From: a virus
Direction: 5' to 3' (one strand)
DNA: 22,807 nucleotides
IMG/VR virus record: IMGVR_UViG_3300030380_001556
Coordinates: 1 to 22,807 of that record
Of the stretch, positions 5,683 through 6,885 are shown piece after piece. The position numbers were made by a program, and so were the translations under genes. Under the pieces are notes generated by a model, which saw only the letters and a list, made by a program, of their open reading frames with translations, was not told the DNA's origin and did no database searches. The first letter of the stretch is position 1, and every line of letters begins with the position of its first letter.

Positions 5683-6885
5683 TTATCCTAATGCTTGGCC
5701 TAAAGTAAACCCATAGTACGTAGTTCCACCATCAATAGTAAGAAAACCAAAAACGTCTACACCATTGTTTGTTGATGTTAGAGTAGGTGCAGTTGCTGAT
5801 GCCCAGTCTACACTTCCAGGCCATGTTATTGTTCTAGCTGACGAGTCTTGAATAACTTTTAATATAAACGCTGAAGCACGTCCTGATGCTGCAGGGTTAC
5901 TAAATGTATACGTAACGTTTTCAGTTAGGTCATGCTCAAATACATTACCATCTCTTAGGTTAATTGTAGCTGCATTTGAACTTGATGTTATAGTTGTAGA
6001 CTCTTCTATTGTACCGTTATCAAAACTTACAACACCATTAGCATCTGCTGTTACAGCTTTAGATGCTGCTGTTAATCCTAGTGTTGTAATGTCTAGATAA
6101 TTTAACTCAGAAGTTGTTGCTGTTACACCGTCAAGAATATTTAACTCTGCGGCTGTAGAGGTGACACCATCAAGTATGTTTAATTCAGCAGCAGTAGATG
6201 TAACACCATCAAGTATATTAAGTTCAGCAGTAGTAGCTGTTACACCATCCATAATATTTAATTCAGATGCTGTGGCAGTTACACTAAGATCACTTAGACT
6301 AGAAACGGTAGCTCTTACGTCAATCTCTCCACCCATACCACTGTGATTTGTACAATAGTAATATAACGTATCTGGAGCATCTTGTTCTAGTTTAACTTCT
6401 GTATAAGCTCCTGCAGAACCTGGAGTACCTACTGCTGTTACACCTGTAGTAAATGCACTACCACCACCATGACTACCGTTTGAAGTTGTACTTAGTCGTA
6501 ATGGGTGTCCTGAGTTACTGCTATCTGATTGATCAAATCTGTATGTTACTGAGGGTGTTAGTAAAGCTAGTTGTTGTATTGTTCCGTCAAGAGCATACTT
6601 ATTACCACCAGAGTTAACTACAGTAACTGCAATTGTTGCGTAAGGTTGTTTAGCATCTATCTGAGTTTGTATTGCAGATGTTACACCATCAACATAATTT
6701 AGTTCAGCAGTCGATGCTGTTACACCGTCAAGTAAGTTTAACTCTGTATTAGTTGATGTAACACCGTCAAGTTTACTTATAGCAATAGCTGCACTTGCGT
6801 TAATATCAGCATTAACTATAGAACCATCTGTGATGCTGTCACTACCAACATTACTTGGTGCAGGTTGATTTCCTATATATGGCAT
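5683..6885 (-). CDS. Tail fibre protein with LDGVT repeats and cupredoxin-like insert
   Basis: The protein has 400 residues and four parts. Residues 1-80 form an N-terminal anchor (MPYIGNQPAPSNVG) with two LDGVT repeats ending in TSAIQTQIDAKQP. Residues about 82-193 form a beta domain with SGHPLRLST and YYYCTNHSGMGG; His127, Cys178, His181 and Met184 are arranged as in plastocyanin-type blue copper sites. Residues 204-262 hold four tandem 13-residue LDGVT units. Residues 300-400 form a C-terminal beta domain (FILKVIQDSSARTITWPGSVDW, DGGTTYYGF) common at the end of phage fibres. No secretion signal is present, as expected for a virion protein. It follows the 110-residue gene, with ribosome site AAGGGAGAG before ATG. 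The fibre call is solid; metal binding is inference. Confidence 0.78.
   Translation of the reverse strand: MPYIGNQPAPSNVGSDSITDGSIVNADINASAAIAISKLDGVTSTNTELNLLDGVTASTAELNYVDGVTSAIQTQIDAKQPYATIAVTVVNSGGNKYALDGTIQQLALLTPSVTYRFDQSDSSNSGHPLRLSTTSNGSHGGGSAFTTGVTAVGTPGSAGAYTEVKLEQDAPDTLYYYCTNHSGMGGEIDVRATVSSLSDLSVTATASELNIMDGVTATTAELNILDGVTSTAAELNILDGVTSTAAELNILDGVTATTSELNYLDITTLGLTAASKAVTADANGVVSFDNGTIEESTTITSSSNAATINLRDGNVFEHDLTENVTYTFSNPAASGRASAFILKVIQDSSARTITWPGSVDWASATAPTLTSTNNGVDVFGFLTIDGGTTYYGFTLGQALG
6100..6267 (-). repeat. Four tandem 39-bp ELN-x-LDGVT repeats
   Basis: Residues about 207-262 of the 400-residue fibre contain four 13-residue units: ELNIMDGVTATTA, ELNILDGVTSTAA, ELNILDGVTSTAA and ELNILDGVTATTS. 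Two neighbouring units are identical in protein but differ at several synonymous bases, so the repeat is maintained at protein level and is not a fresh DNA duplication. Two more units lie upstream at 6676-6771. Confidence 0.88.
6307..6642 (-). other. Cupredoxin-like domain with H...C-x2-H-x2-M motif
   Basis: Residues 82-193 of the 400-residue fibre protein. Seen directly: an upstream His in SGHPLR (codon near 6505-6507) and a downstream Cys-Thr-Asn-His-Ser-Gly-Met cluster ending at 6334. Known: plastocyanin-like proteins bind one copper through His, then Cys-x2-His and a following Met. Here the Met is 3 residues after the second His, a shorter loop than in plant plastocyanin. Metal binding is not shown. 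Confidence 0.55.
6676..6771 (-). repeat. Two LDGVT repeats in fibre N-terminal region
   Basis: Residues 39-70 of the 400-residue fibre read LDGVTSTNTELNL, LDGVTASTAELNY and VDGVTS. Bases 6722-6746 match 2394-2418 in the 791-residue fibre gene with two mismatches over 25 nt, and both copies are followed by related peptides (TSAIQTQIDAK and TSNVQTQMDTK). Confidence 0.75.

Follow-up and report, generated by a model that had tools for sequence, protein, structure and literature searches.

The established roles of cupredoxins are those of electron carriers and of oxidase domains, and a role for them as a structural part of virions is undescribed in the literature searched. In a first-pass annotation of a viral contig of 22,807 nucleotides (the whole of this stretch is referred to here as the window), an apparently complete set of blue-copper ligands was noticed in a beta domain of a tail-fibre-like protein. 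This locus raises the question of whether a cupredoxin has become a building block of a phage fibre, and whether it would bind copper there. The literature searched yielded no paper linking cupredoxins to phage tail fibres, to virions, or to structural proteins of cyanophages; matches to "plastocyanin-like domain" were plant papers, and a paper on Borgs and one on coccoliths were unrelated, judging by title and abstract.

The fibre gene and its middle module

The tail-fibre-like protein is 400 aa long and is encoded on the minus strand (5683..6885) by the third ORF in a run of fibre-like genes; its matches in PHROGs carry tail-fibre or baseplate names and nothing else. Because the TerL of the window is 89% identical to that of Roseobacter phage CRP-9 and the window is collinear with CRP-9 from approximately position 6758 to its end, it was assigned to the HMO-2011/CRP-9-type marine podophages, a group described in PMC8528129. 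The counterpart of the fibre protein in CRP-9, gp45 (MW514246.1), lies at the same locus in the same gene order and is homologous at both ends, namely, in the conserved N-terminal part (aa 1-65, 68% identity) and in the conserved C-terminal domain of about 107 aa (aa ~294-400, 61% identity). It differs in being 276 aa long and in lacking the middle, including the putative cupredoxin domain (aa 82-193; 6307..6642, minus strand). The absence of this middle from gp45 indicates that the domain, together with the ELNxxDGVT fibre repeats that follow it (aa 206-255; 6121..6270, minus strand), forms an exchangeable middle module. The middle of a fibre has been swapped here between close relatives, the CRP-9 orthologue of 5683-6885 being without the module. 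The domain had been placed between fibre repeats by the first-pass annotation, and in the sequence it is indeed flanked by ELNxxDGVT repeats; no further copy of it was found elsewhere in the window.

Predicted fold and relation to known cupredoxins

An AF2 model of aa 82-193, built from 24 homologues, reached a pLDDT of 87.8 and a pTM of 0.82. Its best PDB match by Foldseek was the cupredoxin domain of the nitrite reductase NirK 2dv6 (E 9e-5), followed by 2ux6, a pseudoazurin with an engineered amicyanin loop, and rusticyanin. VIA aligned 103 residues of the model with 2dv6 (Z 9.8, rmsd 3.3) and 100 with rusticyanin (Z 9.2, rmsd 2.7). A second subfamily, obtained with a domain of phage P-SSM2 as the query and linked to the first by a profile match of 99.8%, gave a model with a pLDDT of 95.1 that aligned with 2dv6 over 87 residues (Z 10.3, rmsd 1.8), and 50 of the 50 VIA matches listed for it were copper proteins or oxidase subunit II. 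With cupredoxins at the top of the Foldseek/VIA results for both subfamily models, the domain is predicted to be a Greek-key beta-sandwich of the cupredoxin fold superfamily. The three-domain nitrite reductase 2dv6 and rusticyanin are the best structural matches of both models, but they share 12-15% sequence identity with the window domain and function as enzymes or soluble carriers. The window model matches many structural proteins of marine phages in BFVD; also among its matches there are A0A481Z6J5 and A0A481YVH3, giant-virus "beta-sandwich proteins" (Pithovirus and Marseillevirus, metagenomic). SIRP and antibody Ig domains, recovered in a domain-only sequence search of the PDB at E 0.005 or worse, were rejected as a chance Ig-like resemblance with which the fold search disagrees, and an antibody match of the A1 profile in the PDB (E 0.5) was judged in the same way.

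At the level of sequence, the relationship is remote and continuous. The window domain scores 14.1 bits against Copper-bind (PF00127), for which the gathering cut-off is 21.2, and is therefore not filed as a member of PF00127; the best E-value among A1 members is 5.7e-4. Matches of the window domain to Pfam Pur_ac_phosph_N and SeleniumBinding were below cut-off and were rejected, and a search of NCBIfam gave no match. When a diverse profile of 39 members was compared by hhalign with a small set of classic cupredoxins, a probability of 73% (P 3e-5) was obtained, which rose to 95.5% (1.4e-8) when two flavobacterial domains positive for Copper-bind (L317 and L321) were added to that set as a bridge. 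One of these, L317, scores 28.3 bits for Copper-bind and also matches the family profile at 1.6e-8, indicating that homology is continuous with known cupredoxins. In the hhalign register the first His, the Cys, and the second His fall on cupredoxin ligands, and in the bridged comparison Met falls on Met. Against amicyanin alone, the A1 profile gave a weak match (2% probability), in which the Cys/His/Met loop was nonetheless aligned.

The four predicted ligands were found on the minus strand where the first-pass annotation had put them, i.e., His127 within SGHPLR (codon 6505..6507) and Cys178 (6352..6354), His181 (6343..6345), and Met184 (6334..6336) within YYCTNHSGM. Of these, Cys178 would supply the thiolate and Met184 the axial ligand. 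In the predicted fold, the first His directly precedes a strand (GHPL), and the other three lie in the loop that joins the last two strands, which is the cupredoxin arrangement. This loop had been described as shorter than in type-1 copper proteins, a description that does not hold: the spacing C-x2-H-x2-M, found in 299 of 304 family members, is exactly that of amicyanin (CTPHPFM). The likeness to amicyanin and other type-1 copper proteins of PF00127 thus extends from the fold to the ligand order His...Cys-x2-His-x2-Met, with ligands in register and, for amicyanin, an identical loop length. The phage domain differs in that Pro rather than Asn follows the first His, that the span from His to Cys is mostly 50-51 as compared to 39 in amicyanin-type proteins, and that it is part of a virion fibre, whereas amicyanin-type proteins are periplasmic electron carriers. 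A disulphide role for Cys178, the sole Cys of the protein, was rejected; one Cys per domain is likewise the rule in the family (301 of 305 domains), which argues against a disulphide.

Conservation, loss, and distribution of the predicted site

Among 177 domains at <90% identity, His127, Cys178, and Met184 are each conserved in 176 and His181 in 175, and these are the four most conserved columns of the alignment, above Gly185 and Phe117. At redundancy levels of 70%, 60%, and 50%, they remain within the top seven columns, the top being shared with Phe117, Tyr115, and Tyr176. The conservation of a further His, His139, does not extend to distant members. Since a whole-domain search favours copies that bear the motif, sub-alignments containing none of the four ligand residues were used as queries (A2 and A3). 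These scans sampled the best 80 loci each, with a bias towards nearer relatives, and yielded 166 domains spanning all four positions, 164 of which keep H/C/H/M. Recovery by ligand-free queries and the rank of the four columns both argue that the motif is not a chance match.

The exceptions are informative as well. Two ligands are gone together in L188 (Cys to Glu with His181 to Asp) and in L231 (His127 to Phe with His181 to Gln), and three in L395 of the second subfamily (His to Asn, Cys to Ala, and His to Gln). Three such multiple losses were observed where 0.08 would be expected if the sites were independent (Poisson P ~8e-5, an approximate value as the rows are related). As judged from the sequences, joint loss is the behaviour of residues that would share a single metal site. 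In L302, the axial Met alone is replaced, by Gln, which is the axial ligand in stellacyanins. The type-1 ligand set, taken as a His followed by Cys-xn-His-xn-Met or Gln, is therefore near invariant in the family. Variation of His127 or Cys178 among homologues had been named beforehand as grounds for giving up the claim, and neither residue varies freely. In three cyanophages, P-RSM6, S-SZBM1, and S-CREM1, the scaffold and the first His are kept while the Cys/His/Met part is replaced, suggesting that the module is usable without a metal site in some lineages. With fold, register, conservation, and paired loss all in agreement, the earlier claim that a beta domain of cupredoxin type bears all four blue-copper ligands stands, and both the predicted cupredoxin fold and the four-ligand set of the window domain are considered well supported by the models and alignments.

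The domain is widespread. With the window domain as the query, 55 phage records (cyanophages, pelagiphages, and Methylophilales phages) and at least 596 stretches in IMG/VR were matched, in line with the statement in the first-pass annotation that the pattern recurs in marine phages. For the second subfamily, 347 phage records were matched, and the matches listed were mostly proteins of T4-like cyanophages annotated as gp9 baseplate wedge-tail fibre connector. A full ligand set was found in 86 of 87 second-subfamily copies sampled from IMG/VR, all four ligands are invariant in its A4 alignment (48% mean column identity), and 13 of 14 family domains at the phage loci read in detail have the full set, P-RSM6 being the exception. 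No copy was found in plasmids with the second-subfamily query.

Several further observations concern the proteins that carry the domain. The gp9-annotated proteins of T4-like cyanophages, e.g., those of S-SSM4 and ACG-2014d (L420 and L423), end in a cupredoxin-like domain that has this ligand set too. The tail spike/proximal fibre protein of P-SSM2 (PSSM2_298; L326), a virion protein, contains a pair of cupredoxin-like domains, the second of which scores 21.0 bits, just under the Copper-bind cut-off. The family is also represented on contigs assigned to cells. On contigs of marine Bacteroidetes/flavobacteria (L293, L295, and L296), the domain lies inside open frames of 5,494-9,219 aa, which probably encode surface proteins. 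In a sample of 196 genomes of one order, matches were found in 6; one of them, L302, is in a large ORF with the motif CHHHTGQG. A weak match to the At5g54830-like domain of Pfam (PF25489, E 1.9e-4) was seen for L302/L307 and likewise in 11 of 24 A4 members.

Copper in the virion and alternative readings

The reading favoured in this study is that a shuffled cupredoxin module has a working type-1 copper site and acts as a metal-clasped structural or adhesion domain of virions; it is regarded as likely, with real room for doubt. From the near-absolute conservation of the complete type-1 set and from its paired loss, we infer that copper would be bound at His127/Cys178/His181/Met184. The closest published idea is that of metal in marine phage fibres: iron-binding HxH sites are known in the tail fibre gp37 of T4 and have been proposed for marine phage fibres, namely for Alteromonas phage R22Y (PMC11705849). 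The two cases are alike in the marine setting and in placing metal ligands (predicted ones in the present case) in a phage tail fibre, but they differ in chemistry and in domain, the HxH sites being His-only and located on the trimer axis, in contrast to the single-chain Cys/His/His/Met cupredoxin site predicted here. These iron sites, and the presence of the zinc-bound cupredoxin-like structure 4hcg among the VIA matches of the window model, could be taken to mean that the scaffold binds zinc or iron in a purely structural role. The site itself speaks against this, as Cys, two His, and Met with an amicyanin loop make up the type-1 copper set and the lone axial exception (L302) is the known type-1 variant Gln, and the window fibre protein has no HxH motif, its His residues being those at 127, 139, 181, and 318. 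Binding of a metal other than copper is accordingly considered unlikely.

About equally unlikely is that an ancestral copper protein has been reused as an Ig-like spacer or adhesion module that is metal-free in the virion, its residues being kept for folding, i.e., for hydrogen bonds and packing. Phage structural proteins often contain beta-sandwich modules, free copper is very low in seawater, and the cyanophage domains devoid of Cys/His/Met (P-RSM6, S-SZBM1, and S-CREM1) are compatible with such reuse. However, copper-free families of the cupredoxin fold, such as ephrins and many early nodulin-like proteins, let their ligands drift, whereas in the present family no columns are more conserved than the ligands, which are also lost jointly; it would be odd for a solvent-near Cys and Met to survive ~50% sequence divergence in a domain that holds no metal. 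A redox-active virion copper, in which the Cu(I)/Cu(II) state alters fibre conformation or adhesion at the host surface along the lines of the proposed iron Trojan Horse, would suit the complete type-1 set and the position of the domain in fibres and in gp9-annotated baseplate wedge-tail fibre connectors, and the Pro that follows the first His, a feature shared with the type-1 sites of laccases, may favour a high potential. There is no known redox partner and no sign of a conformational switch, and the fold of cupredoxins hardly differs between apo and holo forms, making this the most improbable of the readings weighed here. A redox role of the virion site is possible, and what points to it is the predicted site itself; plastocyanin-style electron transfer by the virion domain is less likely because no redox partner is known in the virion.

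Under the favoured reading of a copper-clasped virion module, the cupredoxin domain would have been inserted into the middle of the tail-fibre protein of an HMO-2011/CRP-9-type marine podophage. As the fibre protein is made in the cytoplasm, copper would most likely be picked up by the predicted site once folding is complete, while the host lyses or afterwards. With less certainty, a copper clasp may fasten the Cys-His-Met loop to the barrel, thereby stiffening an exposed fibre or baseplate domain, and the site may also be part of the surface that contacts the host.

Hundreds of phage records contain this domain without annotation, and its identification as a predicted cupredoxin provides a name for it. 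Because the four ligands are kept almost throughout hundreds of aquatic phages, virus particles may carry copper. A stronger version, put forward here tentatively and with more doubt than confidence, is that type-1 copper is present in stoichiometric amounts in the fibres and baseplates of abundant aquatic phages (podophages, pelagiphages, Methylophilales phages, and, most visibly, T4-like cyanophages), with the copper state affecting attachment or particle stability; if true, this would parallel the iron Trojan Horse proposal, with copper in the place of iron. If copper is bound, very common marine phage particles would be metalloprotein assemblies that draw copper from seawater or from lysed cells, and phage stability, attachment to the host, and the cycling of trace metals would be affected.
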